Assembly: GCA_021808545.1 (NCBI GenBank)
Contig: JAKBBM010000007.1
Location: 1 to 54,404, forward strand
Direction: 5' to 3'
Origin: Pseudomonadota bacterium
GTDB lineage: Bacteria > Pseudomonadota > Alphaproteobacteria > Acetobacterales > Acetobacteraceae
Length of the DNA: 54,404 nt
Part shown: positions 19,388 to 33,309 of the stretch, piece after piece
Position numbering within the stretch: the first letter of the stretch is position 1
Layout of the letters: each line of letters starts with the position of its first letter
Translations under genes and position numbers: made by a program
Notes under the pieces: generated by a model
Told to the model about the DNA's origin: nothing
Seen by the model: only the letters and a program-made list of their open reading frames with translations
Database searches by the model: none

Positions 19388-21790
19388 TTAGGCGGCGCTG
19401 GCCCGCAACTCCCCGGTCAGGGTTTCCACAAAGCTGAGCTCCGGCAGCGGGCGGTGGAACAAATAGCCCTGGGCCTGGGCGCAGCCATAAGAGAGCAACA
19501 GCTCGGCTTGTTCCTCATGCTCCACCCCCTCGGCGGTGACGAGCATGCCCATCCGCTCGGCCAGCCCGATAATGGCGAGGATGATGGAGCTGTCATCCTT
19601 CTCATAGCCGAGATCGCGGATGAAGGAGCGGTCGATCTTGATTTTGTCGAAAGGAAAGCGGCGCAGATAAGAGAGCGAGGAATAGCCGGTGCCAAAATCA
19701 TCCAGCGCGATGCGCACGCCCTTCTCATGCAGGCGCCAGAGCGCATCCTCGGTCTGGCGGTTATTATCCAGCATCACGGATTCGACGATTTCCAACTCCA
19801 ACCGTTCGGGCGGCAGGCCGGCGGTCTCCAGCGCCTCGCTGATAATGGTGACGAGGTTGGAATCTCGGAATTGCAGCGGCGAGAGATTGACGGCGACGGT
19901 AATCGGCGCCGGCCAGGCGGCGGCGGCGGCGCAGGCCTCGCGCAGCACCCAGGCGCCGATCTCGCCGATGAATCCGCTCTCCTCCGCCAGGGGGATGAAT
20001 TCACCTGGGCTTAGTAGGCCGCGTTCGGGATGGCGCCAGCGTATCAAGGCTTCGGCCCCGGCGATGCGCCGGGTCGCCATATCGACCACCGGTTGGAAGG
20101 CGAGGCAGAATTCATTCTGGCCCACGGCATGGCGCAAGGCGGTTTGCAGCATGCGCCGTTTATGCATCGCCTCGTCCATGGCTGGGTCGTAAAGCCGGGC
20201 GATGCCCCGCCCCTCGGCCTTGGCGCGGTACAGTGCCAGATCGGCGTTTTTCATCAGCGTTCCGGGTGTGGCGCCATCCATGGGCGCCATGGTGATGCCG
20301 ACGCTGATGCCGATCTGTACAATTTGGCCATCGAAATGGAACGGGCGGACGATACGCTCGATAATGCGCCGGGCAACGGTCAGCGCCTCGTCTACATCCT
20401 CGGTCACGACGATAACGGCGAATTCATCGCCGCCCAGGCGGGCGGGGGTGTCAAATTCACGGATACAGCCGCGCAGCCGCTCGGCCACGGCCACCAGCAC
20501 GGCATCGCCCGTGGCATGGCCAAGCGTGTCGTTCACGGCCTTGAAATTATCGAGATCGAGACAGAGCAGGGCAATGCCCGTGGTCTCGCAATGCTCGCAC
20601 GCCTGGTGCAGCGTTTCGGAGAATAGCACGCGGTTGGGCAGTTTGGTCAGGCTGTCGTGCCGGGCCAGGAAGGAGATATGCTCTTGCTGGCGGCGCTGGC
20701 CGGTTACATCCGAGCCAACGCCATGATAGCCGGCGAACTGGCCGGCCTTATCGAGGATCGGCTTGCCGGTGAGCGACCAGTAACGTTCCTCGCCCTCGAT
20801 GATGACCGGCACGACGAGATCGCGAAAAGGCGAGCGCTCGGCGATGGCGCGGGTAAGCTGGGTGAGTGGCGAGCCGGGTTGGTTGGCCGCCATGGCCGCC
20901 TCGCCCAGCAGCGCGGCGGGGAAGGGGCCGGTGATGCTGGCGGCGGGGCGGCGCGCCACTTGCGCCAGGCGCTGGCTGGGGTGCTGAATATTCAGGTTTT
21001 TGTCGGTGTTCCACAGCCAGTCCGAGGCGCTTTCCTCGAAATCGCGCAGCAGCAGGCGGATAACTTCGGCGTTTTCCTCCAGCCGGATGGCGCCTAGGGC
21101 ACGTTCATTCATCCGGCTATTGAGATAAAGGATGCAAAAGCCGGTCAGCCCCATAAAGGCCATGAGGTCGAGCATCACGATGGGTTCGTAGATATTTGCC
21201 TCGAACCCGGCGATGGTGATGCCGATGGAAACCGGCAGCCAATAGGCGATGGAGCAAGAGATGGGCGACACCAGCACGGGCGTGGCCAAGCAGCCCACAA
21301 ATACACCGTATAATAGGCAGACCTGATTCAGGTTATGCTGCTGCATCAGAAGAATGAGCAATAAGGACCAGATAATGCCAAGCAGCACCAGCATGCGCAC
21401 CATTGCGGCGAAATAGGCTTTGGCATCGGTGGCCGTGGCATGCGACCGGTTTAGCCATCGCAGTGCGCTGCTGATGATCGCGGCGTAATTGAGTAGGGTA
21501 CTGATCATGAGCATCACGCGCAGCGGCGCGCCGGGTGAGCCCAGGAAATCGACGTAAAGCATGGCAATCGTGCAGACGCCGATGAGCGCGTTGCCGGTCA
21601 TGATGTAGCTGAAATCGGTGGCCTGGTCGTAGAGCAGCCGTTCGGCCAGATCGGGAGGAACCTGTATGCCCTGCAACATGGCCCGGAGCTTGTAGGCAAT
21701 GGCGCGGATCAGGCGCCCGGTCGTGCCTGTGCGGTCATCCGGCCTCATTGTCCGCATGGTGGCGGTTTGTTCAGTCACCCGGGAATCCAT
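19388..21790 (-). CDS. Membrane-anchored GGDEF-EAL cyclic-di-GMP enzyme
   Basis: An 800-residue protein. The first ~245 residues contain about six hydrophobic segments of an unclassified sensor region; a PAS-like stretch follows (about 265-375). The GGDEF domain has an intact GGDEF motif (453-457), and the EAL domain has intact EALIRW (580-585) and DDFGTGYSS. Both catalytic cores therefore look competent, and the protein could make or break cyclic-di-GMP depending on its signal. It is transcribed divergently from the acyltransferase/methyltransferase pair across a 450-bp AT-rich region, so the two sides may be co-regulated. It precedes mutS by 51 bp. Confidence 0.93.
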   Translation of the reverse strand: MDSRVTEQTATMRTMRPDDRTGTTGRLIRAIAYKLRAMLQGIQVPPDLAERLLYDQATDFSYIMTGNALIGVCTIAMLYVDFLGSPGAPLRVMLMISTLLNYAAIISSALRWLNRSHATATDAKAYFAAMVRMLVLLGIIWSLLLILLMQQHNLNQVCLLYGVFVGCLATPVLVSPISCSIAYWLPVSIGITIAGFEANIYEPIVMLDLMAFMGLTGFCILYLNSRMNERALGAIRLEENAEVIRLLLRDFEESASDWLWNTDKNLNIQHPSQRLAQVARRPAASITGPFPAALLGEAAMAANQPGSPLTQLTRAIAERSPFRDLVVPVIIEGEERYWSLTGKPILDKAGQFAGYHGVGSDVTGQRRQQEHISFLARHDSLTKLPNRVLFSETLHQACEHCETTGIALLCLDLDNFKAVNDTLGHATGDAVLVAVAERLRGCIREFDTPARLGGDEFAVIVVTEDVDEALTVARRIIERIVRPFHFDGQIVQIGISVGITMAPMDGATPGTLMKNADLALYRAKAEGRGIARLYDPAMDEAMHKRRMLQTALRHAVGQNEFCLAFQPVVDMATRRIAGAEALIRWRHPERGLLSPGEFIPLAEESGFIGEIGAWVLREACAAAAAWPAPITVAVNLSPLQFRDSNLVTIISEALETAGLPPERLELEIVESVMLDNNRQTEDALWRLHEKGVRIALDDFGTGYSSLSYLRRFPFDKIKIDRSFIRDLGYEKDDSSIILAIIGLAERMGMLVTAEGVEHEEQAELLLSYGCAQAQGYLFHRPLPELSFVETLTGELRASAA

Positions 21791-22240
21791 TCCATACCAT
21801 CTGATAATAGTGATGTATTGAAAATATCGTATGCCATATGCACAACTTTACGTAATCTATTTCTTAAGATTCTGCTATCTTAGAATTTCTTTTTAATTAT
21901 ATTTCAGTCAGGACGGGGCTGATTTTCTTTTTTGTCGGACCGAGTCGGCAGGATCGCGTGGCGGATTTATTGTGCGCGATCCTTGTTTCACAATTCTGCA
22001 TTGTAGCGCTGTGTTTTACGGCCGTTCCCGAAACAAGGGCGTACGCCTCTTGAGGGCGTTTTGACTCCAACAGTTTATTAGAAAATCTTAAATCAAATTG
22101 TTAAAAAACAAAAGATTTTACCCTAATTTTAATTACGAAAACAAAATTAAGTGACATTACTATAGTAAGATTATTCTCACATCTTTCAGGCGAAAAGATT
22201 ACTAATCCTTCTTGTTTGGGTTGCAACATAGGAGGATTAA
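21791..22240. other. 450-bp AT-rich divergent intergenic region
   Basis: No open frame with coding character is seen. The region is much richer in A+T than its surroundings and holds the divergent promoters of the GGDEF-EAL gene (minus) and the acyltransferase gene (plus). Items visible: a 10-bp palindrome GGCGTACGCC (22038-22047), a candidate -35 TTGACT (22061-22066), an 8-bp inverted repeat AAAATCTT/AAGATTTT (22082-22089 and 22112-22119) enclosing a second dyad TTGTT-N4-AACAA (22098-22111), and a perfect 12-bp palindrome TTACTATAGTAA (22157-22168). No convincing lux box was found. It is the longest gene-free stretch in the window. Confidence 0.7.
22157..22168. promoter_or_regulatory. 12-bp palindrome, possible operator
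   Basis: TTACTA directly followed by its complement TAGTAA forms a perfect dyad 72 bp before the acyltransferase start. It contains TATAGT, which could also serve as a -10 hexamer, so an operator overlapping the promoter is possible. No regulator family can be named from it. Confidence 0.35.
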
Positions 22241-22996
22241 ATGAGTTCTTTACAATCTCTGCAGACCGCGGCGCCGTCGGCCTCGCGGAATTTTGTTGGC
22301 GCGCGGGCCCGTCCCCAGATCCAGCAAAGCGGGCTGACCGCCCGGCTGGCCCTGGATGAACAGACCAAACGCGACGCCTACGCCATCCGGCATGATAGCT
22401 ATTTGTCGGGCGGCTATATCGACCCGCGGCCCGACGGCCAGTTCTCGGACGCGGACGATCTGAAGCCAAACAGCCAGTCTGTTGTCATCTACCAATGGGG
22501 AGAACCCGTGGCCTCGGTCCGGCTTTGCATTCTGGACTTAGCGCCAGGCCTGCAGGGCTGGGATGAAATTCCCGCCTCGCGCATTTTCCCCGACGAGGTG
22601 CTGGGCATGGCCAGGGGCGAGCCGGATGGTCAGCGCAAACGGCTGGTCGAGATCAACCGGCTTGTCCGCCATCCTGATTACGCCACCAACTATCAGCTTG
22701 TTTTCGTGCTGTTCCGGTTCGTTTCGTTTCTGCTGATGAGCGCGAAGGCAGACATCATGCTGTCCTGTGTCCGGCGCAATCACACGCCGTTCTACAAGCG
22801 TATGCATTTCGACTACGTGGCCGGGCCGCGCCGCTATGCCGGGGTGAAGTTCGAGACCAACCTGATGAGCTGCACAATGGGCGGTGTGGATCTCATCCGC
22901 ACGGAAATGCCGATCGTCGGCGCTGATCGCAAAACCATTGAATCTTATGCCGCGCTGCTCGCCGGCGAAACCGTTTCCGTTTTCCTGGAGGATTAA
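22241..22996 (+). CDS. LuxI/FeeM-like GNAT-fold N-acyltransferase
   Basis: A 251-residue soluble protein resembling the N-acyl amino acid synthase (FeeM) branch of the autoinducer-synthase-like GNAT fold. Family-like points are RDAYAIRHDSYL (44-55), an acidic patch near SDADD (69-73), SVRL (92-95), the E-x-x-R pair Glu137/Arg140 in EINRLV, corresponding to ELSRF-type text in LuxI enzymes, and a C-terminal HTPFYKRMHF. Such enzymes join a fatty acyl group from acyl-ACP to an amino compound. The start is certain: AGGAGG (22230-22235) is 5 nt before the ATG, the best ribosome binding site in the window. The methyltransferase gene follows after 4 bp. Acceptor and product cannot be read from the sequence. 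Confidence 0.75.
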   Translation: MSSLQSLQTAAPSASRNFVGARARPQIQQSGLTARLALDEQTKRDAYAIRHDSYLSGGYIDPRPDGQFSDADDLKPNSQSVVIYQWGEPVASVRLCILDLAPGLQGWDEIPASRIFPDEVLGMARGEPDGQRKRLVEINRLVRHPDYATNYQLVFVLFRFVSFLLMSAKADIMLSCVRRNHTPFYKRMHFDYVAGPRRYAGVKFETNLMSCTMGGVDLIRTEMPIVGADRKTIESYAALLAGETVSVFLED

Positions 22997-23000
22997 TCAC

Positions 23001-23561
23001 ATGAACATTCTGACAACCGCCCTCACGGGCTTTGACGCCACCCTGTGCTTTGCCGTCTTTTCCTGGGGGGTAAAGGGGCATTTTCGCTCCACGGGCGCCA
23101 TGCCGCTTGGCATGAAACTAACCAGCGCCTTGAGCCTGGCCCTGTTTGCGGCGTTTCTGTGGCATTTGCGCCAAGGGCCGGCCCTTTACTGGCCCGTGGC
23201 CATTGTGCTGTTCACCATGTCGCTTGCGGTGTTCGCGGCGGCCATTGTCGCCAGCCGGCGCACGCCGCCCACATTGGCCTTTGATACGGACAGCCCAAGC
23301 TTCCTGCTCCGCCACGGGCCCTACCGCTATGTGCGCCACCCGTTTTATCTTGCCTATGTGCTGTTCTGGTTCGGCACCGCGATTGCCGTGCACGCGCTGG
23401 CCGGCTGGCTGGCGCCGGTGCTGATGACCGGGCTGTATATCGAGGCTGCCACACGCGAGGAGCGGAAATTCGCCAACTCCGAACTGGCCGACGCCTATGC
23501 CGCCTACCGGGCCAAGGCGGGCATGTTCTGGCCACGGCCGCTGGCGTTGTTGGCCAATTAA
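23001..23561 (+). CDS. Isoprenylcysteine/phospholipid methyltransferase-like membrane enzyme
   Basis: A 186-residue integral membrane protein with about four hydrophobic segments and the C-terminal signature of the ICMT/PEMT methyltransferase superfamily: RHGPYRYVRHPFYLAY, then a helix, then EERKFANSELADAYAAYRAK. These enzymes methylate lipid-linked carboxyls or amines using S-adenosylmethionine. GGAGG (22987-22991) is 9 nt before ATG 23001, and the gene begins 4 bp after the acyltransferase stop, so the two are almost certainly translated from one message. The obvious inference is that it methylates the acyltransferase product, but the substrate is unknown. A 9-bp hairpin follows (23579-23601). 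Confidence 0.82.
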   Translation: MNILTTALTGFDATLCFAVFSWGVKGHFRSTGAMPLGMKLTSALSLALFAAFLWHLRQGPALYWPVAIVLFTMSLAVFAAAIVASRRTPPTLAFDTDSPSFLLRHGPYRYVRHPFYLAYVLFWFGTAIAVHALAGWLAPVLMTGLYIEAATREERKFANSELADAYAAYRAKAGMFWPRPLALLAN

Positions 23562-23673: not shown

Positions 23674-23799
23674 TTAGCCCTGGCGGGCCTTCATGCGGGG
23701 GTTCTTCTTGTTGATCACGTAGACCCGTCCATGACGGCGCACTACGCGGCAATTCTTGTCGCGGGTCTTCGCGGATTTCAGGGAGTTACGGATCTTCAT
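23674..23799 (-). CDS. rpmJ: 50S ribosomal protein L36, zinc-free 41-residue form
   Basis: A complement frame from ATG (23797-23799) to TAA (23674-23676) encodes 41 residues beginning [16 protein letters not shown] and containing [17 protein letters not shown], which is L36. Only one cysteine remains (Cys17), so the CxxC...C...H zinc site of the 37-38 residue form is missing, as in the longer alphaproteobacterial type. It is a single-gene transcript with its own promoter and terminator. It stands alone, away from the spc/alpha ribosomal operons. Confidence 0.95.
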
Positions 23800-23837
23800 G
23801 ACGCGTCTCTGAGTAAAAAATGATCAATAGGTGCGGG

Positions 23838-23866
23838 GATATGCCGGGTGGGCACGTGTCTGTCAA
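23838..23866 (-). promoter_or_regulatory. Predicted rpmJ promoter
   Basis: On the minus strand a perfect -35 TTGACA (complement of 23861-23866) is followed after 17 bp by CATATC (complement of 23838-23843) as a weak -10. Transcription would start near 23831, about 30 nt before the rpmJ ATG. Confidence 0.5.
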
Positions 23867-24005
23867 CCATGGCGGCCGCCCAGCGATGTGGCGTGGCGCG
23901 CGCACGGACGTGGCTGTCATGAAAAGGTCATTCGCTTTTACTGAAATTCCTTTGTTCATAGCCGATCCAAGCGGGAAATACCGCCGAGTCGTCTGGAGAG
24001 CGCGC

Positions 24006-24764
24006 ATGCAGATCAGTTTCGTCGTCCCCGCCTATAATGAGCAGGCCTTGCTCGGCCGCTCCTTGGTTGCGATTCGCGATGAGATCGCCCGCGCCGGGCT
24101 TATTCTGGGGCAGGAGGCCGAGATCATCGTGGTGAATAACGCCAGCACCGATGAGACCCGCGCCGTGGCCGAGGCGGTGGTGGGCGTGCGCGTGGTGGAT
24201 GAGCCGCGCAAGGGGCTGGTGCAGGCGCGCTGGTGCGGGTTCGAAGCCTCAACCGGCGCGCTGATCGCCAATATTGATGCCGACACAATCATCCCCCCCG
24301 GCTGGTTGAGCGAGGTGCTGCGCCAGTTCAGCCGGGGTGATAATCTGGTCGCCTTATCGGGCCCCTATATTTATTATGGCGTGCCGGCCAAGGTGAATAT
24401 TGTGGTGGGGCTTTATTACCGGCTCGCCTTTCTCGTCTATTTGTTCAACCGCTTCGTGCTCAATGTCGGCTCCATGCTCCAGGGCGGCAATTTCGTGGTC
24501 CGGCGCGCGGCCATGCTAAAGCTTGGCTCACCCTCGCATCGTTTCTCTTTTTATGGCGAGGATACCGACATGGCGCGCCGGCTCTCCAAAGTGGGGGGCG
24601 TGAAATTCACCTTCCGCCTGCCCGCGCGCTCGTCCGGGCGGCGCCTGGTGGGCGAGGGGGTGGTGACGATCGGGCTGCGCTACTCAATGAATTTTTTCTG
24701 GGCGACATTTCGTGAAAAGCCCTTCACCGAGGAGTGGCACGATATTCGCGAGGAAATTTACTAG
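24006..24764 (+). CDS. GT2-family glycosyltransferase
   Basis: A 252-residue GT-A fold glycosyltransferase. It starts QISFVVPAYNEQALLG, has the nucleotide-binding VNNASTDET, and an IDADT motif that is the DxD metal/nucleotide-sugar site (about residues 95-100). A hydrophobic stretch in the middle (about 137-155) suggests membrane association. The start is ATG 24006, with GGAG 7 nt upstream; the frame is open to 23820 but the earlier part is not family-like. It probably transfers a sugar during surface polysaccharide synthesis, matching the neighbouring rhamnose genes, but it is on the opposite strand. A 12-bp stem follows the stop. Confidence 0.85.
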   Translation: MQISFVVPAYNEQALLGRSLVAIRDEIARAGLILGQEAEIIVVNNASTDETRAVAEAVVGVRVVDEPRKGLVQARWCGFEASTGALIANIDADTIIPPGWLSEVLRQFSRGDNLVALSGPYIYYGVPAKVNIVVGLYYRLAFLVYLFNRFVLNVGSMLQGGNFVVRRAAMLKLGSPSHRFSFYGEDTDMARRLSKVGGVKFTFRLPARSSGRRLVGEGVVTIGLRYSMNFFWATFREKPFTEEWHDIREEIY

Positions 24765-24791
24765 CCCCTTCAGCTTTGTGCTGAAGGGGCT
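24763..24791 (+). terminator. Hairpin at the end of the GT2 gene
   Basis: AGCCCCTTCAGC (24763-24774) and GCTGAAGGGGCT (24780-24791) form a perfect 12-bp stem with a 5-nt loop, beginning within the stop codon. The following TGCTCTATGTTT is only moderately T-rich. Confidence 0.65.
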
Positions 24792-24807
24792 TGCTCTATG
24801 TTTGAGC

Positions 24808-24864
24808 GAGCAATGTCAGGCGTTTATCTTGTCCCTTGCGAGGCAATCCAAACGCCTATTGCTC
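24808..24864. repeat. Long imperfect inverted repeat between convergent glycosyltransferase genes
   Basis: GAGCAAT-gtc-AGGCGTTT (24808-24825) pairs with AAACGCCT-ATTGCTC (24850-24864), 15 bp interrupted by one 3-nt bulge. The 24-nt apex contains a small TTGC/GCAA hairpin. It may be a bidirectional terminator or the body of a small RNA. See the finding on alternative pairing with 24791-24796. Confidence 0.6.
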
Positions 24865-24882
24865 TAACGCGTTGCCGACCGC

Positions 24883-25866
24883 TTAGCTTGGCAGGGCGGC
24901 CTGTTTGCCCGGCAGTGCCGCGGTGGCGCTGGGCAAGGCGGGGGCGTTGGTTATGAACCAGTAAGAAAACAGCAGATTTTCCAGCCATGTGCGGCGGCGG
25001 AAGCGGCGGCAGCGCAGCGCGTTCAGCCGGTTTAGCAAGCCGCCCCGCAACCCGCTTTGGATCAGCCGTAAATCCTGCCGTGCCTGCGGCGAAAGCCGCC
25101 CTGGCTGGGCCATCAGATGGTCGGTGTGGCGGCCCATCATGGTCATGTAAATGGCCGGACCGCGCCTGAGCGCGGCCAGAGCCCGCCAGGGCAGCGGATG
25201 GGCCCGGCCGATCAGATTTTCCTTATGCAACCGGTAGAGCACTTGCGGCTGCGGATCGAACAGGATGCGGCCGCCGGCGGCCGAGACAACGATATAGCTC
25301 CACCAATCATGTACCGAGCCGTCTGGCATGTTGGCGCTGGCCACCAGGGCGGCGGCTTGCCCGTTCAGCACGAGCGTGTTGCCGTTGGCGATATTCTGGG
25401 TCAGGCAGGCGGGAAAAGCGGGGGCCTCGCCGTGCAGCGCCGAGAGCCGGGCGCCGCGCAAATGCTCATCCACCAGATATTGCCGGGCGCAGTAAAGAGC
25501 GGGTTCCGCATCTGTCTGGCGCAGCCAGGCCATGGCGCGGGCCAGTTTTTCCGGCAGCCACACATCATCCTGGTCGGCAAAGGCTACGGGGCCGTTATCT
25601 TTTTGCTCGCGCAGCAGGGTGAGGAAGCTGGCCGCCGCCCCCAGATGCGGGCCAGAAGAGGGCGATTCAACGAAAAGTTGTTGCCCCACCTGTTCCGCGA
25701 AAGCCCGCAAAACCTCGACCGTGCCATCGGTTGAGCCGTCATCACGCCAGTACAGAACCCAGTTTTTATGGGTTTGATCCAGCAAGCTATCGAGCTGCTC
25801 CTGAAGGTAGCGCGCGCCATTATAGGTGGAGAGCAGGATGGTAACACGCGGCTGCGAAGACGCCAT
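24883..25866 (-). CDS. GT2-family glycosyltransferase, rhamnosyltransferase-like
   Basis: A 327-residue GT-A glycosyltransferase. The N-terminus VTILLSTYNGARYLQEQLDSLL is typical of the subgroup that includes rhamnosyltransferases, and the DxD-type motif appears as FADQDDVWLPEKL (about residues 95-107). Later conserved features include the HDWW segment (about 190). Together with the adjacent dTDP-L-rhamnose genes it is reasonable to infer transfer of rhamnose to a polysaccharide or glycolipid, but the sugar is not provable here. It has its own promoter (25960-25989) and ends 18 bp from the inverted repeat shared with the convergent gene. Confidence 0.85.
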   Translation of the reverse strand: MASSQPRVTILLSTYNGARYLQEQLDSLLDQTHKNWVLYWRDDGSTDGTVEVLRAFAEQVGQQLFVESPSSGPHLGAAASFLTLLREQKDNGPVAFADQDDVWLPEKLARAMAWLRQTDAEPALYCARQYLVDEHLRGARLSALHGEAPAFPACLTQNIANGNTLVLNGQAAALVASANMPDGSVHDWWSYIVVSAAGGRILFDPQPQVLYRLHKENLIGRAHPLPWRALAALRRGPAIYMTMMGRHTDHLMAQPGRLSPQARQDLRLIQSGLRGGLLNRLNALRCRRFRRRTWLENLLFSYWFITNAPALPSATAALPGKQAALPS

Positions 25867-25959
25867 TACACCGGCTCCGGCATGAATTCAGCGAACATAA
25901 GACAAGCGGCGGCCTTCATGCGTTGTTTCATGTCCTAAATAAAATTTGAATTCCAAGGC

Positions 25960-25989
25960 ATTATATACGCCAAAGCAATTTGCAAGCAA
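25960..25989 (-). promoter_or_regulatory. Predicted promoter of the rhamnosyltransferase-like gene
   Basis: On the minus strand TTGCTT (complement of 25984-25989) and a perfect TATAAT (complement of 25960-25965) are separated by 18 bp in an AT-rich gap. The start site would be near 25953, leaving a leader of about 87 nt. Confidence 0.6.
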
Positions 25990-26120
25990 TGAATTCTGGC
26001 TCATTTTAGTGCAATGATCGCATATGCGAACGCCGTCTCTTGCCCATGCCGGGGCTGGCGTGGGAAGGGCGGCGTTGTCTTGTATTTCGCGGTGTTTAAG
26101 AAATATCTCTTACGATGACG

Positions 26121-27014
26121 TCAGCCCGGCGCATCCAGTGCCAGCAAGGCGGCCACGATCGGCCCCAGGCTTGCGCGCCAATCGGGCAGGTTGACGCCGA
26201 ATGTCTGGGTTAAACGGCTGCAATCTAGGCGCGAATCAGGCGGACGGCGGGTGGGGGTTGGCCAATCGGCGGTGGTGATGGGCTGTACCTCGGGCGATTC
26301 GTAGCCATGCCGCGCCGCTTCCTCAAAAATGGCGGTGGCAAAGCCGTGCCATGTGGTCTCGCCCGCATTGGTGGCGTGGAAGATGCCCTGGTAGCCGGGC
26401 TGCCAGCCAGTTTGGTTGATTTTATCCACAATACCCAGAATCGCGGCGGCAAGGTCGGCGGCGGCGGTGGGGGTGCCGCGCTGGTCGGCCACCACCCGCA
26501 GCACGGGCATCTTGCGCCCGGCATTGAGCATGGTGCGGGCAAAATTCTTGCCATGCCCGGCATAAACCCAGGCGGTGCGCAAAATCACGGCCTTGGCGCC
26601 GGTGGCCAGCACCGCCTCTTCGCCAGCGCGCTTGCTGGCGCCGTAAATGCCGGTGGGGTTGGGCGGGTCCGTCTCCACGTAAGGCGCGCCCTTATTGCCG
26701 TCGAACACGTAATCGGTGGAGACATGGATGAACGGAATATCCGCCGCCGCGCAGAGTTCGGCGAGCAGGCGCGGCCCGGTATGGTTGCCTGCCCGGGCGG
26801 CATCCTGGTCGGTTTCGGCCTTGTCCACCGCCGTATAGGCGGCGGCGTTGATCACGATTGTTGGCTGCGCCGCACTGAAGCTGGCAATAACCGTATCCGG
26901 TTTTTCGAAATCGAAATCAGGCCGCGCAAGGGCGGCAAAATCACGCCCCTGCGCACGGCACAGAGTGATCAGATCTTGGCCAAGCTGGCCCGAGGCGCCG
27001 GTGATCAGGATCAT
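26121..27014 (-). CDS. rfbD: dTDP-4-dehydrorhamnose reductase
   Basis: A 297-residue short-chain dehydrogenase/reductase that makes dTDP-L-rhamnose from dTDP-4-keto-L-rhamnose with NAD(P)H, the last step of the pathway. It begins ILITGASGQLG (Rossmann motif) and has the active-site Tyr-Lys pair in GIYGASKRAGE. It is the last gene of the rfbBACD operon and overlaps rfbC by 4 bp. Length is normal. Confidence 0.95.
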   Translation of the reverse strand: MILITGASGQLGQDLITLCRAQGRDFAALARPDFDFEKPDTVIASFSAAQPTIVINAAAYTAVDKAETDQDAARAGNHTGPRLLAELCAAADIPFIHVSTDYVFDGNKGAPYVETDPPNPTGIYGASKRAGEEAVLATGAKAVILRTAWVYAGHGKNFARTMLNAGRKMPVLRVVADQRGTPTAAADLAAAILGIVDKINQTGWQPGYQGIFHATNAGETTWHGFATAIFEEAARHGYESPEVQPITTADWPTPTRRPPDSRLDCSRLTQTFGVNLPDWRASLGPIVAALLALDAPG

Positions 27015-27571
27015 GCGTAGGTAAACCAGTGCGCGGCCGGGTTGAAGAGGGGGGCGGCGCGGTCTTTGTCGGAGAGTGATTCCGCCCCCGGCGCCACCGG
27101 CCAGGGCAGGGCCAGGGTGGGGTCGTTCCAGACCACCGCGCGTTCGGCGGCGCGGTCATATTCGCCGGAGACTTTATAAATCACCTCCGTATCGGGCACG
27201 AGCGTGCAGAACCCGTGCAGGAACCCGCCTGGAATCCAAAGCTGGGCCCAGTTTTCGGCGGAAAGTTCAGCCGCCACCCATTTGCCGTACGTGGGCGAGC
27301 CTTGGCGGATATCCACCGCCACATCCCAGATGGCGCCTCGGATCACGCGCACGAGCTTGCCCTGCACGCTGGGTGCCACCTGGCAATGCAGGCCTCGAAT
27401 GGTGCCCGCCGCCGCCGAGAAGCTTTGGTTGTCTTGCACGAAATGTTCGTTGAACCCTTGTGCCGCGAGTTTCGAGGCACTCCAGGTCTCGGAGAAAAAG
27501 CCGCGTGAATCGCCGAATTTTGGCGGGATGATGCGCAGCACTGCGGGGATGGCGAGCTTTTCGATCTGCAT
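27011..27571 (-). CDS. rfbC: dTDP-4-dehydrorhamnose 3,5-epimerase
   Basis: A 186-residue cupin-fold enzyme that epimerises C3 and C5 of dTDP-4-keto-6-deoxy-glucose. Family hallmarks are DSRGFFSETW near the N-terminus, TIRGLHCQ with the catalytic His, and the later WIPGGFLHGFCTL. It overlaps the rfbA stop by one base and rfbD by 4 bp. Confidence 0.96.
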   Translation of the reverse strand: MQIEKLAIPAVLRIIPPKFGDSRGFFSETWSASKLAAQGFNEHFVQDNQSFSAAAGTIRGLHCQVAPSVQGKLVRVIRGAIWDVAVDIRQGSPTYGKWVAAELSAENWAQLWIPGGFLHGFCTLVPDTEVIYKVSGEYDRAAERAVVWNDPTLALPWPVAPGAESLSDKDRAAPLFNPAAHWFTYA

Positions 27572-28452
27572 TAATGCTGCACTCCATCGGCGATATTGGT
27601 GAGAATCCGTCCCAGCTCGGTCTTGGCGATGAGCTGGGCGCGGGTTCTGAGCTGATCAGCGTCGATAAAGCCCATGCGGAACGCCGCCTCTTCCGGGCAG
27701 CCGACCAGATTGCCCTGCCGGTCCTGGATGGTCTGCACGAAGGTCGCGGCCTGGAGTAGGGAATCCGGCGTGCCGGCATCCAGCCAGGCGGTGCCACGCC
27801 CCAGCCGCTCCACCTTCAACGTGCCTTCCTGCAGGTACAGGTTGTTGAGGTCGGTGATTTCCAGCTCCCCGCGTGCCGAGGGGCGGACCTTATGGGCCAG
27901 TTCGGTCACCCGGTGATCGTAGAAATAAAGCCCGGTCACAGCCCAGTTGGAAATGGGGTTTTGCGGCTTCTCGACAATCTCGATCGCCTTGCCGTCCGTA
28001 TCGAAGGAGACCACGCCATAACGTTCCGGATCGCGCACCTGATAGGCGAACACGGTGGCCCCTTCGGGCCGGCTGCCGGCGGCGCGCAGCAAGGTGGAGA
28101 GATGGTCGCCATGAATCAGATTATCGCCCAGCGCCAGGGCGCATGCCTCTCCGGCAATCCATTCCTCGCCGATCAGGAAGGCCTGGGCCAGCCCGTCGGG
28201 GGTGGGCTGCTCGGCATAGGAGATGCGGATGCCAAGATGCGCGCCATCATGGAACAGGCGCTGGAATTGCGGCAGGTCCTGCGGTGTGGAGATGATCAAC
28301 ACCTCGCGGATGCCCGCCAGAATCAGCGTGCAGAGCGGGTAGTAAATCATCGGCTTGTCATAAACCGGCAGCAGTTGCTTGGAGCTGGCCTGGGTGATGG
28401 GGTGCAGGCGCGTGCCCGAGCCGCCGGCCAGAATAATACCTTTGCGGATCAT
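27571..28452 (-). CDS. rfbA: Glucose-1-phosphate thymidylyltransferase
   Basis: A 293-residue nucleotidyltransferase that makes dTDP-glucose, the first step to dTDP-L-rhamnose. The N-terminus has the activation loop [14 protein letters not shown], followed by [17 protein letters not shown] chose ATG 28452, which overlaps the rfbB stop as ATGA; an upstream in-frame start at 28512 would place 20 unrelated residues inside rfbB. Confidence 0.96.
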
Positions 28453-29507
28453 GCGGCAACTCCGCCCAGACGCTGCCCGGCATAGCGCCCGGCGCGGATG
28501 TTTTGCCACCATTCCTCATGCGCCAGATACCAGGCGATGGTTGCGCGCAAGCCGCGCTCGAAATCATGCGCGGCCGTCCAGTCCAGCGCGGACTTGGCGC
28601 TTGTGGGGTCGATCTCGTAACGATGATCATGACCGGGCCGGTCGGTCACATGCGTGATCAGGCGTGTGCGCGGGCCGTTCGGGCTGGGGCGCAGCTCGTC
28701 CAGAATCGCGCAGATGGCGCGCACCACCTCTATATTGCGCTGCGGCTGGCGCGCGCCGATGCAGTAAGTGGCACCTGGTGTGCCGGTGGTCACGATTTTC
28801 AGCAGGGCTTGCGCATGGTCATCCACGAACAGCCAGTCGCGCGTGTTCAACCCCTGGCCATAAACCGGCAGGGGTTTTTCCTCCAGCGCGTTGATGATCA
28901 TCAGCGGGATCAGTTTTTCAGGAAACTGCCAGGGGCCGTAATTATTGGTGGTGTTGGAGACGATGACCGGCAGCCCATAAGTATGCATCCAGGCCCGGGC
29001 CAGATGGTCGGACGCCGCCTTGCTCGCCGAATAGGGGCTGCGCGGATCGTAGGGCGTGTGCTCATTAAAAGGTGGGTCGGAATCGGCGAGGGCGCCGAAC
29101 ACCTCATCGGTCGAGATATGATGGAAGCGGAATTTTTCGCGCTTTTCACCCGTTAATGTCGCGAAATATTCACGCGCGGCTTCCAGCAGGGTGAAGGTGC
29201 CGGTGACATTGGTCTGCACAAAGGCGGCCGGCCCGTCGATTGAGCGGTCCACATGGCTCTCGGCGGCCAGATGCATCACCACATCCGGCTGGTGCGTGCT
29301 AAAGGCGGCGCGCATGGCGGCGGGGTCGCAAATATCCGCCCGGATCAGCACATGGCGCGGATCGGTTCGGGCTGCTTCCAGGGCATCTTCCGAGGCGGCA
29401 TACGTCATCTTGTCGATATTCACGATCTCATGCGCGCCATGGCTCATGGCATGGCGGATCACCGCCGAGCCAATGAAACCGCAGCCGCCGGTCAGAAGGA
29501 TTTTCAT
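28449..29507 (-). CDS. rfbB: dTDP-glucose 4,6-dehydratase
   Basis: A 352-residue extended short-chain dehydrogenase that converts dTDP-glucose to the 4-keto-6-deoxy sugar. It begins [15 protein letters not shown] (NAD-binding) and contains HISTDEVFG and the catalytic Tyr-x3-Lys in [12 protein letters not shown]. It is the first gene of the rfbBACD operon and lies 46 bp after the stop of the large glycan protein upstream on the same strand, so they may share a transcript. Confidence 0.96.
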
Positions 29508-29553
29508 GCGCCATCCGTAAAAAGAAATGAAAAATCAGGCCGGATTTGTTCAA

Positions 29554-32500
29554 TCAGACCTTACGCCGCTTGGCAACAGGCTGGCGGGCTGCTTTGGGCC
29601 GCGCTTTGGCGGTGCGCGCGAATTGCGCGGCAAGCCGGGCATGGTCCTCGGTCTGGGCGGCGCGCGCGGCCTCATCCAGCCCCAGGGCCTGGGCCGCCAG
29701 CTCATGCATGCGTTTGACCTCGGCCAGATGCGCCTTGGCGGGAAGCCGGCTGGTTACGCCATCGGCATGGCGCCGGTGCGCGTTCAACGGGGTGGCAATA
29801 TAGACGATCTCGCCCTTTTGTTGCGCCATCAACGCGAGATAAAGCCGCCAATCTCCCGCCAGCTTCCATTTTTCCAGATCCGGAACGCTCTCCAGCGCCT
29901 TCAGCAGCGCCTCGCGCCGCCACAACACTGCACTGACATTAAGGATCAGATTGCGCACGGCCAGAAAGTCCTGCGCGAACTGCTCCGCCGGCCAGTTTCC
30001 CGATTGGGCCAGCCCGGTCACGCCGCAATTGAAATAATAAGATTGATAGCTGGGGCCTAGTTTTTTGCCGGTTTCATCCATTGGACGGCTGTCGCAAAAG
30101 GCCAGCAGCGGTTTGTCGGCCGTGGCCAACGCCTCAACCAGGCGGGCTAGAAATTCCGGCTCGGCCGCGTCATCCGCCTCGCACAGCCATACATAATCGC
30201 CCGTGGCCTCTTGGGCCGCGCGGCGCCATTGCGCGAACACGCTGCCCAAATTGCGCGTATTGGCGATAATCCTGATATCCCGTCCGGCTGTTTCAGCGGT
30301 CTCGTGCGCCACCTCCAGGGAATTGTCGGTGGAGGCATCATCCAGCAGCAAAATCTCGGAAACCGGATAGGTTTGCGCGAACACGCTGTTCAGCCGTTCT
30401 GGCAAATGGCGGGCGTAATTATAATTCAGCACTGCAACACTCACGCGCCGCAAGCCGGGCTCGGCCAGGCGCAGCAGATTATCCACATAGGTGCCAAAAT
30501 CGAATTTCTGCGCGGCCATGGCGGACAGGCGCGGGCGCAGGGCGGCGAGTTTTTCATGGTCGAGCAGGGCGGTCATCTCGGCCAGAAAATCATCCACATC
30601 GGCAAAGCGGGCCACGCGCCCGGCTTTTTCCTGGCGCAGCAATTCGGGAATCCCGCCGGATTCATCGAAGGCAACACACGGCATGCCACAAGCCAAGGCT
30701 TCCATCACCACGGTGGGCAGCGGATCCTCGCGCGAGGTCAGCGCTAATATATCGGCGGCGGAAAAATAATCGGCCACGCGCTCGGTAAACGGAATATGAG
30801 TGAAGTACCCCGCCGCGCGCGCCTGGTCTATTTCGGGTTCGAGATATGTTTTTAGCATGAATTCCAGATCGCCGACCCAGATAAAATGTATATCCGCGCG
30901 CAGGCTTGCGAATTTACGGCCTAGCTGAAGGAATAAATCAAATCCCTTGCGCATGTGCCCAAAGCCCGCACCCAGGATCAGGAATTGTTCATCCCCCAGG
31001 CCTAAGTTCCGTCGTATACGCGTGCGCGCGGCTGCATCAAAGCGCATATTCTGGTAATTGCCCTGGGGCAGCACCACGTCGTTATGGCCTGGCAAATCCA
31101 CGGCGCCGCGGAATTTGTCGCGCAGATAGGCGGAGGAGAAGACCAGCCGCCGTGCCGCGGCACCCCCCAGCTTGGCCTGGATTTCGAGATTATATTCCTT
31201 GAGCAGTTGCGGAAGCTCGTGCACCAGCATGGTGGTGGCAATGCCCCGGCTTTGCGCCCAGGGCACGATGCGCGCGCTGGCGGCGGAATTGACGATGGCG
31301 GTGCGCACGCCCATTGCCTTGTAATTATCGAGCAGATTGCCGATCACGGTTTTGTCGTTGGCAACCGTCACCTCCGCTGCCTCGTAATAGCGCGCCAGAA
31401 GCGGTCCCACACCCAGCAGCAGCAGATGCACCCGCATGCCCCATTGGCGCCGGAGCTGGCGCGCGATGTGCAGCAGCAGCAATTGCGCGCCATGGGCCTG
31501 CGCGTCATGCCCCACCAGCAGGATACCGGCGGCGAAATCGGCGTGCTCGCGCTCGCAAATGGCGCGCGAGGTGGCGTTAAGATAAGCCGCCCCCGAATGC
31601 ACATCGGGCTCCAAAAACGCGCCCTCGGCCCACTCATTCCAGGCATTCACGCAAATAATTCGCTCGCCATGGAAGGGGTGGTGCGCGGTATAATCCACCA
31701 GTTTTTCAAGCCAGTCCTGGTATTTTCCCGGGGTGGCGTTATGCAGCACGAGGCCCTTGCCCTCGCGGCGCGGATCATTATCCCAGCCGGGTACGATGGT
31801 TTTGATCAGCGGATACTCGGGTACCGGCAGCTTGAGCGAGGTTTCCGCGATATCGGCATAATCATGCACGGTGGCGGAAAAATCTGGGTCCAGCAGGTCA
31901 AGCGAATCGCCGATCCGGCGGGTTTCCTGGCTTAATTTGTGCGGCGGGAATTCCACGGCCCCATCCAGCCCGTAAGGGGTGGGGTCGTAATCCTCGCCCA
32001 GGCTCTGCGCCATGATCAGGAGCGGGCGCTCGCCATGCAGTTCCTCGAACATGCGCCGCCATTTTACGATGCGCGCGGCGGCATCGGGGATCAGCCCGGC
32101 GCGGTAGATCATCAGCAGCGGGCGGTTCTGGATGCGGATATAGCGCGCATCCTCGAACAGGCGCGCGAACGAGTCGATTAACGCCGGATCGTCCTCTTCC
32201 AGATATTCCTGCGCGATCAGCACCTCGCGCTCCATGCCATCCCAGCGGCGGGTCCAGTTCTCGTTCGCCCACATCGCGCAGAAGGAAAAATCGAGCGATT
32301 TGTCGGCCAGGAACTGCTCCAGCGGCTTTTCCAGCAGCCGGTGGCGGTTGAACCAATAGGTGTAGAACACAAATCCCTCGAGCCCGGCTCCCTTGGCCAT
32401 CTCGATCTGGCGGCGCAATGTCTGCGGATCGTCGAGCGAATAATGGCCGAGATCGCGCGGGATTTTGGGCTGCACATGCCCGGCAAAGCGCGGGCTGGCG

Positions 32501-33309
32501 CGCCCCAGATTGGTCCAGTCGGTAAAGCCCTTGCCCCACCAGGCATCGTTTTCGGGCACGCGGTGGAATTGCGGCAGGTAATAGGCGAGCAGACGTGCCT
32601 TGCGCGCGGCATGGGCCGGGGCGGGGCTGAATTCCTCGAAATGCGCGGCCCTGCGGGTAGCGCGGCGCACCGCGGCGGCGACCTGGCGTTCCTCATCCGG
32701 CCGGGTGGAGAGGAACAGCCCGTTCTGCCGGTTGGCGAGATAATGCAGCAGCGGGTTCTGGTCCTTCACCAGGGTTGCGTAACGGTTGCGGTAGAAGCGC
32801 AGGTCGAAATCGGCGGCGGGGTTTCGCCCCTCATTCACGCCAAAGGTGCAGAAATGCTCGAACGGATCGGCGCTGCCCTGGGCCACGTCGGGATTGTTGT
32901 CGAGATAGAAGGCGCCGTCGAACACCGGCACGGGGTTGACCTGCCCACCATGCCGCCGCTCCAGGAAGTGCTTGAGGCACGGATCCTTCGGCCCCAGCCC
33001 GTAAGTCGCGCGGTACCATTGGGTGTGGAACCAGGCTGAGGGATCGCGCCCCTCGGCCTCGCCAAAGGCAATGTAATGCAGCAGCGGGTTCACCCCGGCG
33101 GCGGCGATCTCGGGATAGCGGGCAAGATACCAGGCTGGGTCGAAATAGGGGTTGGGCCGGGCCCCCGCGCGCCAGCCCTCGGTGCAGAAATGGGTAATGC
33201 CTTCCTCGCCTGCCGTCTCGGCTTTCGGGTGCTGGCCCAAATACCAGGACGAGAGAAACAGCCCGCTCTGCCGGATGACATGAATTTCCGCTTTCAGATT
33301 TGGCGACAC
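29554..33309 (-). CDS. Four-part glycan biosynthesis protein: repeats, WbsX domain, GT4, GT2
   Basis: A 1251-residue protein with no signal peptide or membrane helix that I can see. Residues 1-~205 are five degenerate repeats of about 38-40 residues with an aromatic-rich pattern (FDPAWYL..YPE, then DPLLHY..G..EGR.P). Residues ~240-580 match the WbsX/GH99-like domain (LLAYYLPQFHRVPENDAWWG; MWANENWTRRWDG). Residues ~595-945 are a GT-B fold GT4 with LTSREDPLPTVVMEALACG. Residues ~950-1200 are a GT-A fold GT2 (VSVAVLNYNYARHLPERL, CEADD as the DxD site). The tail is basic. It probably adds several sugars to a surface polysaccharide. It precedes rfbB, consistent with a rhamnose-containing product. 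Confidence 0.85.
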   Translation of the reverse strand: MSPNLKAEIHVIRQSGLFLSSWYLGQHPKAETAGEEGITHFCTEGWRAGARPNPYFDPAWYLARYPEIAAAGVNPLLHYIAFGEAEGRDPSAWFHTQWYRATYGLGPKDPCLKHFLERRHGGQVNPVPVFDGAFYLDNNPDVAQGSADPFEHFCTFGVNEGRNPAADFDLRFYRNRYATLVKDQNPLLHYLANRQNGLFLSTRPDEERQVAAAVRRATRRAAHFEEFSPAPAHAARKARLLAYYLPQFHRVPENDAWWGKGFTDWTNLGRASPRFAGHVQPKIPRDLGHYSLDDPQTLRRQIEMAKGAGLEGFVFYTYWFNRHRLLEKPLEQFLADKSLDFSFCAMWANENWTRRWDGMEREVLIAQEYLEEDDPALIDSFARLFEDARYIRIQNRPLLMIYRAGLIPDAAARIVKWRRMFEELHGERPLLIMAQSLGEDYDPTPYGLDGAVEFPPHKLSQETRRIGDSLDLLDPDFSATVHDYADIAETSLKLPVPEYPLIKTIVPGWDNDPRREGKGLVLHNATPGKYQDWLEKLVDYTAHHPFHGERIICVNAWNEWAEGAFLEPDVHSGAAYLNATSRAICEREHADFAAGILLVGHDAQAHGAQLLLLHIARQLRRQWGMRVHLLLLGVGPLLARYYEAAEVTVANDKTVIGNLLDNYKAMGVRTAIVNSAASARIVPWAQSRGIATTMLVHELPQLLKEYNLEIQAKLGGAAARRLVFSSAYLRDKFRGAVDLPGHNDVVLPQGNYQNMRFDAAARTRIRRNLGLGDEQFLILGAGFGHMRKGFDLFLQLGRKFASLRADIHFIWVGDLEFMLKTYLEPEIDQARAAGYFTHIPFTERVADYFSAADILALTSREDPLPTVVMEALACGMPCVAFDESGGIPELLRQEKAGRVARFADVDDFLAEMTALLDHEKLAALRPRLSAMAAQKFDFGTYVDNLLRLAEPGLRRVSVAVLNYNYARHLPERLNSVFAQTYPVSEILLLDDASTDNSLEVAHETAETAGRDIRIIANTRNLGSVFAQWRRAAQEATGDYVWLCEADDAAEPEFLARLVEALATADKPLLAFCDSRPMDETGKKLGPSYQSYYFNCGVTGLAQSGNWPAEQFAQDFLAVRNLILNVSAVLWRREALLKALESVPDLEKWKLAGDWRLYLALMAQQKGEIVYIATPLNAHRRHADGVTSRLPAKAHLAEVKRMHELAAQALGLDEAARAAQTEDHARLAAQFARTAKARPKAARQPVAKRRKV

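Follow-up and report, generated by a model that had tools for sequence, protein, structure and literature searches.

In Burkholderia, the synthase of the lipid signal BDSF (RpfF) is encoded near its receptor RpfR, a PAS-GGDEF-EAL protein whose c-di-GMP phosphodiesterase activity is described as rising upon binding (PMC12838280). This is the closest system in logic to the locus described here, which lies in the Acetobacteraceae contig JAKBBM010000007.1 (assembly GCA_021808545.1; the whole 54,404-nt stretch analysed is hereafter called the window) and comprises a gene for a FeeM-type synthase homologue (gene 1), a membrane methyltransferase gene (gene 2) and a divergent gene for a putative receptor. 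The components of the two systems differ. That is, RpfF belongs to the enoyl-CoA hydratase family whereas gene 1 is of the FeeM type, RpfR carries an FI-PAS domain and no six-transmembrane (six-TM) domain whereas the receptor in the window has six TM segments, and the cited sections on RpfF/RpfR describe no methyltransferase (PMC12838280), whereas the cassette here has one. The synthases Nas343 and Nas354 belong to the same Pfam family as gene 1, and a c-di-GMP-binding PilZ-type domain is reported to be fused to the synthase (PMC4897644). Nas synthases are, however, presented as surfactant makers or as linked to PEP-CTERM, and the cited parts of those reports describe neither a TM GGDEF-EAL or kinase partner nor a methyltransferase. 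Gene 1 also resembles, at profile level, the acyl-homoserine-lactone (AHL) synthases of LuxI/LuxR systems, and the lactone, too, is an acyl-amino-acid derivative without charge; here, however, the synthase matches FeeM and not PF00765, the membrane protein is not a LuxR, and the product would be a methyl ester rather than a lactone. In CqsA/CqsS and LuxM/LuxN, the synthase gene lies beside that of a multi-TM histidine kinase, as in the Rhodobacteraceae-like version of the cassette presented below, but the chemistry is different and no methyltransferase is known to take part.

As regards the product, N-acylglycine methyl esters are reported from Loktanella isolates F13, F14 and D3, and alanine and other methyl esters from Roseovarius strains, these esters being held to be native as no methanol was used (PMC6296433); the synthase genes were called unfound in a 2024 text, in the part cited (PMC11580390). 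The likeness to the locus described here is twofold, in that such esters are the product class predicted for the cassette and that Loktanella salsilacus, too, has a FeeM and ICMT-type gene pair; L. salsilacus is not among the isolates reported as ester makers. For the Acetobacteraceae, the cited part of a type-strain survey gives NasY homologues in three Acidiphilium strains only (PMC8776678), and in the open-licence literature we found nothing joining N-acyl amino acids with isoprenylcysteine methyltransferase.

Gene 1 (positions 22241-22996, plus strand, 251 aa) has an AGGAGG Shine-Dalgarno motif (22230-22235, plus strand) 5 bases ahead of its ATG at 22241. After a gap of 4 bp it is followed by the ATG (23001) of gene 2 (23001-23561, plus strand, 186 aa), whose own Shine-Dalgarno motif, GGAGG (22987-22991, plus strand), is situated within the end of gene 1. 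The coordinates, the gap and the good ribosome binding sites that the first-pass annotation had given for the two genes were thus correct; the ORF list also holds an alternative earlier GTG start for gene 2, at 22884. At E ≤ 1, the sole Pfam family matching gene 1 is PF21926 (FeeM), with 102.3 bits (E 2.9e-29) against a curated cut-off of 27. The same model matches every one of the 26 rows of alignment A1, which includes the window; ordinary GNAT models are marginal there, reaching at best E 0.027 and no more than 3 of the 26 rows, and PF00765 (LuxI, Autoind_synth) matches no row in the Pfam scan. This bears out the earlier assignment of gene 1 to the autoinducer or N-acyl amino acid synthase type, and the closest relatives are FeeM homologues; both an ordinary GNAT identity and, as the main reading, an AHL synthase can be dismissed. 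The E-x-x-R pair also noticed at first sight is E137-x-x-R140, E and R each being present in 25 of the 26 rows of A1 (window included). R140 aligns, in the wider profile A6, with the arginine of the E-L-S-R motif in AHL synthase 3p2f (PDB). None of the 15 non-family rows of A6, Loktanella included, has Glu in the E137 column (14 have Asp and 1 has Asn), so that Loktanella can be only a distant guide. The catalytic glutamate is described as Glu95 in FeeM and Glu103 in Nas354 (PMC4897644); E137 was placed by way of the AHL-synthase E-x-x-R motif rather than by direct alignment to FeeM Glu95. Against the PDB, the A1 profile matches the FeeM structure 2g0b weakly (0.033), and the broad A6 profile matches 3p2f at 1.1e-4 and three further AHL synthases at 0.011-0.18. 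Judging from these family matches, the putative activity of gene 1 would be to join an acyl chain from acyl-ACP to an amino acid. Class-wide matches to PF21926 were not accepted uncritically, as 60 of 387 genomes pass the cut-off and only 4 exceed 100 bits. The window's own genome contains a second, weak match to the FeeM model (G000:C121, 3040-3414; 23.6 bits, below cut-off), which we assume to be perhaps an OlsB-like acyltransferase.

The divergent gene upstream (19388-21790, minus strand), which is absent from the first-pass annotation, encodes an 800-aa putative receptor with six TM segments (about residues 60-222), a PAS_4 domain (254-367; Pfam E 2e-7), a GGDEF domain (376-528; 1.5e-44) and an EAL domain (550-781; 3.8e-75). 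The six segments were predicted by a simple hydropathy scan and lie in an N-terminal sensor domain (residues 40-246; 21053-21673, minus strand), for which there is no Pfam match. Among 21 aligned receptors, G453-G454-D455-E456-F457, E580 and L582 are invariant and A581 is nearly so, and the GGDEF and EAL domains are predicted to act on c-di-GMP. The receptors at four loci (L038, L040, L041 and L126) have the TM domain and GGDEF with no EAL match, which suggests that the direction of the c-di-GMP output may vary. With 14 GGDEF matches in the 2.4 Mb of the window's own genome, a GGDEF neighbour by chance is unlikely for a given gene. As had been stated, no LuxR-type gene is adjacent: none was found in Pfam scans of the two genes and the two large neighbours, the neighbours scanned being the GGDEF-EAL protein, the ICMT-like protein and a glycosyltransferase.

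The divergent intergenic region (21791-22240) spans 450 bp and has 36% G+C, versus 63% for the window. Directly upstream of the ribosome binding site of gene 1 it holds a conserved element, TAATCCTTCTTGTTTGGGTTGCA / TAATnnTTCTTGTTTnGGTTGnA (22203-22225, plus strand), a candidate leader or promoter whose core is found in 17 of the 19 Acidocella-type intergenic regions compared. The element has one copy in the window's own genome at up to 3 mismatches and was therefore dismissed as a regulon box; a known RNA leader was dismissed as well, since a scan of the window at the Rfam gathering threshold gave no match. Just 3′ of the cassette lies a small ORF (23674-23799, minus strand), ribosomal protein L36 by eye, followed by a polysaccharide region (23820-33309) with glycosyltransferase genes, including one for a 1251-aa WbsX + GT1 + GT2 protein, and, by eye, probable sugar-nucleotide genes. 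This region is a possible target of c-di-GMP.

In 200 genomes of the same family, the FeeM query (P0001) has matches in 22, the window's own genome counted, and the receptor TM domain is encoded near FeeM in 26 of 29 same-family loci, the three others being a contig end (L042) and two distant relatives (L059 and L062). The TM-domain profile A5 finds 26 strong places (≥140 bits) in these 200 genomes, 25 of them beside a FeeM-like gene; 21 of the 26 are rows of A5 itself, which was built from cassette members, and 4 of the 5 places outside the profile rows also adjoin FeeM. TM-domain places found elsewhere in the 200 genomes are weaker (≤92 bits). Counted by genome, 21 have both FeeM and the TM domain, 1 has FeeM alone and 4 have the TM domain alone (3 of them weak), giving a Fisher value of 2e-23 for related genomes that are not independent. 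In a control comparison, GGDEF, EAL or the receptor TM domain is found within 1.5 kb of 50 of 56 FeeM loci versus 0 of 38 weaker homologues (Fisher 2e-20). The 38 control loci consist of 26 class matches (PF21926, 31-49 bits) and 12 A6 matches (35-44 bits), which we take to be probably OlsB-like and other acyltransferases. The six FeeM loci without such a neighbour are two of the kinase type (L179 and L186), one contig end (L025) and three with no partner recognised (L022, L190 and L198). Furthermore, methyltransferase and receptor are encoded in a single frame in two genomes (G108:C226, 967 aa; G059:C260, 993 aa).

The association extends beyond the family. A phylum profile search of 397 genomes gave 45 non-family places; flanks were taken for 31 and 14 weak places were left out. 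In this search at most 6 candidates were scored per genome, and the other genome searches likewise scored only some of the initial candidates in many genomes, so that absences are provisional throughout. GGDEF or EAL adjoins FeeM in 24 of these 31 places, namely 23 loci of families f147 and f151 plus one in another family (G903). In all 23 f147/f151 loci, GGDEF-EAL is encoded upstream of FeeM on the same strand, with 297-636 bp between the EAL and FeeM domains, and the methyltransferase was found in none of the 23. Since 10 of the 29 same-family loci likewise have the receptor and no methyltransferase, methylation is not part of the wider FeeM/c-di-GMP pairing. G903 has a complete Acetobacteraceae-type cassette, and in two trees its FeeM and its methyltransferase each group with their counterparts from L048 and L054, a pattern compatible with joint transfer. 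The FeeM tree left out duplicates (L104, L110, L122, L123, L125, L127, L128 and L132), fragments and split or distant rows (L059, L060, L062, L105, L119 and L121) and matches below 40 bits. The FeeM/GGDEF-EAL pair is also carried by plasmids of Rhizobium tumorigenes and Shinella; among plasmid matches H1-H15, nine were looked at (H1, H4, H6, H9, H10, H11, H13, H14 and H15). No receptor-like neighbour of FeeM was recognised at L059, L062, L217, L225 and the weak L232-L234, and Acidiphilium multivorum and Palleronia have a FeeM homologue with no such partner recognised nearby.

We propose that the three genes form a cassette for synthesising, methylating and sensing an N-acyl amino acid methyl ester, with the divergent c-di-GMP protein as receptor, a reading to which we lean with little better than even confidence. 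The FeeM-type enzyme would couple a fatty acyl chain from acyl-ACP onto the amine of an amino acid, and the ICMT-type enzyme, in the membrane, would methylate the free carboxylate using SAM. The resulting N-acyl amino acid methyl ester would be neutral and able to cross membranes, since methylation would abolish the charge, an effect comparable to that of the lactone ring in AHLs. The PAS-GGDEF-EAL protein would detect this ester through its six-TM domain and would in turn alter c-di-GMP synthesis or breakdown. The main rival is a surfactant under c-di-GMP control: the product would act as a surfactant or in the membrane, its production would be controlled by the c-di-GMP protein or kinase in response to the state of the membrane or surface, and no signal would pass between cells. 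Known synthases do yield surfactants, the PilZ domain of Nas343 and Nas354 has been proposed to regulate the synthase (in the cited part of PMC4897644), and other NAS genes have been tied to PEP-CTERM sorting (according to a title cited in PMC8776678). The partner here is, however, a TM sensor protein (GGDEF-EAL or kinase) and not a PilZ effector, strong copies of the TM domain away from FeeM are few (1 of 26 in the 200 genomes), and the two genomes named above have the methyltransferase fused to the receptor, so we consider this alternative unlikely. The first-pass annotation had left the product as a signal or membrane lipid; the membrane c-di-GMP neighbour tied to the synthase tips this towards a signal. 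In one same-genus genome (G187:C11), the locus L169 (2062-3825) has kept receptor and methyltransferase with no FeeM match, and this may be a listen-only variant of the signalling cassette.

Gene 2 encodes an integral membrane methyltransferase of the ICMT/PEMT superfamily with RHPFY and EE motifs. In Pfam it passes PEMT (32.2 bits versus a cut-off of 25, E 1.5e-7) and DUF1295, and falls below the ICMT cut-off by 0.5 bits (23.5 versus 24, E 7.6e-5); in NCBIfam, the models for isoprenylcysteine methyltransferase, MddA and LmtA give scores far under their cut-offs. With a profile of the 17-member gene 2 family, the best PDB match is the plant protein AtTam46 (8xku, 1.2e-11), followed by the ICMT structures 4a2n (4.4e-8), 5v7p (4.1e-7) and 5vg9 (5.8e-7). 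RHPxY and EE motifs define ICMT, and G106, R112-H113-P114-F115-Y116 and E153-E154 of gene 2 are invariant among the 17 aligned members. Its earlier placement in a family that methylates lipid-linked carboxyls or amines therefore holds, and the putative activity would be SAM-dependent O-methylation of a carboxylate. A different modification, that is N-, S- or phospholipid methylation as in PEMT or MddA relatives, leading to a differently methylated lipoamino acid, would agree with the PEMT match, the missed ICMT cut-off and the low NCBIfam scores. It is nevertheless improbable, given that the profile matches ICMT (carboxyl) structures at 4e-8, that the carboxylate is the obvious site on a simple N-acyl amino acid and that carboxyl methyl esters are what the Loktanella isolates are reported to make (PMC6296433).

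Pairing of genes 1 and 2 is not due to chance: FeeM and methyltransferase are encoded on the same strand in 58 loci with tight spacing. In 35 of the 58 the two genes overlap or are separated by no more than 4 bp, and in 55 by no more than 48 bp, as measured to the nearest start codon and with 8 contigs entering twice. The pair is found across Acidocella, Rhodopila, Gluconobacter and other Acetobacteraceae, so that the conservation expected of a genuine cassette was indeed observed and the earlier reading of the gene pair is supported. Profile searches of flanks found the methyltransferase in 17 of the 29 FeeM loci of same-family genomes, and in a scan of named genomes it was present in 40 of 45 FeeM loci, with the receptor TM domain in 42 of 45, the query alignment (13 of 14 rows methyltransferase-paired) favouring paired loci. 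These 45 loci come from Acidocella, Rhodopila, Gluconobacter, a Rhodovastum MAG and other MAGs, and 8 of them are the same contigs as in the same-family set. In the named scan, the contigs of L121 and L124 end too early on the downstream side, no methyltransferase is present at L105 and L113, and L126 has weak methyltransferase pieces only. At L060 (G126), FeeM is split over two ORFs while the methyltransferase and receptor domains look intact. Conversely, gene 2-type methyltransferases occur in at least 18 places at E ≤ 1e-18, in 15 of the 200 same-family genomes (at most 16 candidates scored per genome). Seventeen of these 18 places adjoin FeeM and are all rows of the profile itself (A2), which was built from cassette members so that high scores there are partly by construction; the eighteenth, the one new place, is that of G187, beside the receptor and with FeeM missing. 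A methyltransferase subfamily exclusive to FeeM would fit the 200 same-family genomes except G187 and fails at class level, where 11 of 13 homologue places are outside the family (71-181 bits) and where profile searches found no FeeM, GGDEF or EAL at the 10 of these 11 whose surrounding DNA was searched. Two loci of family f34 (L298 and L300) have methyltransferase homologues without FeeM and a same-strand neighbour ORF of 380-404 aa.

Other methyltransferase and receptor types stand beside FeeM in a further family, f19, here called Rhodobacteraceae-like from about 60% identity to Sulfitobacter proteins. Among its 295 genomes, 18 have a FeeM match, 7 of them strong (≥170 bits), and at each of the 7 strong loci genes for a methyltransferase and for a multi-TM histidine kinase lie beside FeeM. 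The methyltransferase is of class I in five loci and of the ICMT type in two, one of which is essentially L. salsilacus and the other from another genus. Across both methyltransferase classes, the kinases resemble one another along most of their length (about 42% identity), which indicates retention of a methyltransferase despite the difference in class. The two ICMT-type loci have FeeMs that fall outside the Acetobacteraceae-type clade (branch support 99, in a tree that warns of long branches), and their methyltransferases group with a FeeM-less one (support 94) and not inside the Acetobacteraceae set. The methyltransferase tree, whose deep forks are open, thus does not favour a single origin of the FeeM-ICMT pair, and the methyltransferase was likely recruited separately in the Rhodobacteraceae-like lineage. 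A common sensor domain for the three lineages is likewise unsupported (hhalign probability below 4%); from these comparisons, the three appear to share a logic and not a receptor family. In Sulfitobacter and relatives (L236 5230-8289; L241; L263-L265; L207; L214), genes for a class I methyltransferase, a FeeM homologue and a sensor kinase lie side by side, and by gene content these clusters would represent a parallel cassette with another methyltransferase class. One Sulfitobacter plasmid copy (L240 3809-5970) carries an IS256-family transposase gene within its class I methyltransferase region, which adjoins FeeM.

A divergent GGDEF/EAL gene is also described next to nspI, an AHL synthase gene of Nitrospira (PMC8553950). 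On two L. salsilacus plasmids, the genes for the kinase, the ICMT-type protein and FeeM are consecutive, with a 4-bp overlap between the ICMT-type and FeeM genes, and this FeeM relative carries the annotation acyl-homoserine-lactone synthase and narrowly passes PF00765 (24.6 versus a cut-off of 24). Despite this and the A6 match to 3p2f, it is very improbable that gene 1 is a true AHL-type synthase, with a lactone or related product sensed by the membrane protein and the methyltransferase acting elsewhere, because every A1 row matches PF21926 and none PF00765, the Loktanella protein itself scores 129.9 bits for FeeM, LuxR is absent among the neighbours scanned and, as a matter of general chemistry, an AHL has no free carboxylate to methylate.

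Returning to the methyl ester cassette, we tentatively suggest, with somewhat less than even confidence, that it belongs to an undescribed lipid-signalling family across the Alphaproteobacteria in which the receptor is a GGDEF-EAL protein or a histidine kinase depending on the lineage, and that the gene pair accounts for the so far missing biosynthesis of the Loktanella and Roseovarius methyl esters. The presence of cassettes in named strains of Gluconobacter, Acidocella and Loktanella makes the idea testable. If it is true, membrane c-di-GMP enzymes and histidine kinases of this kind would form a class for which a candidate ligand is at hand.
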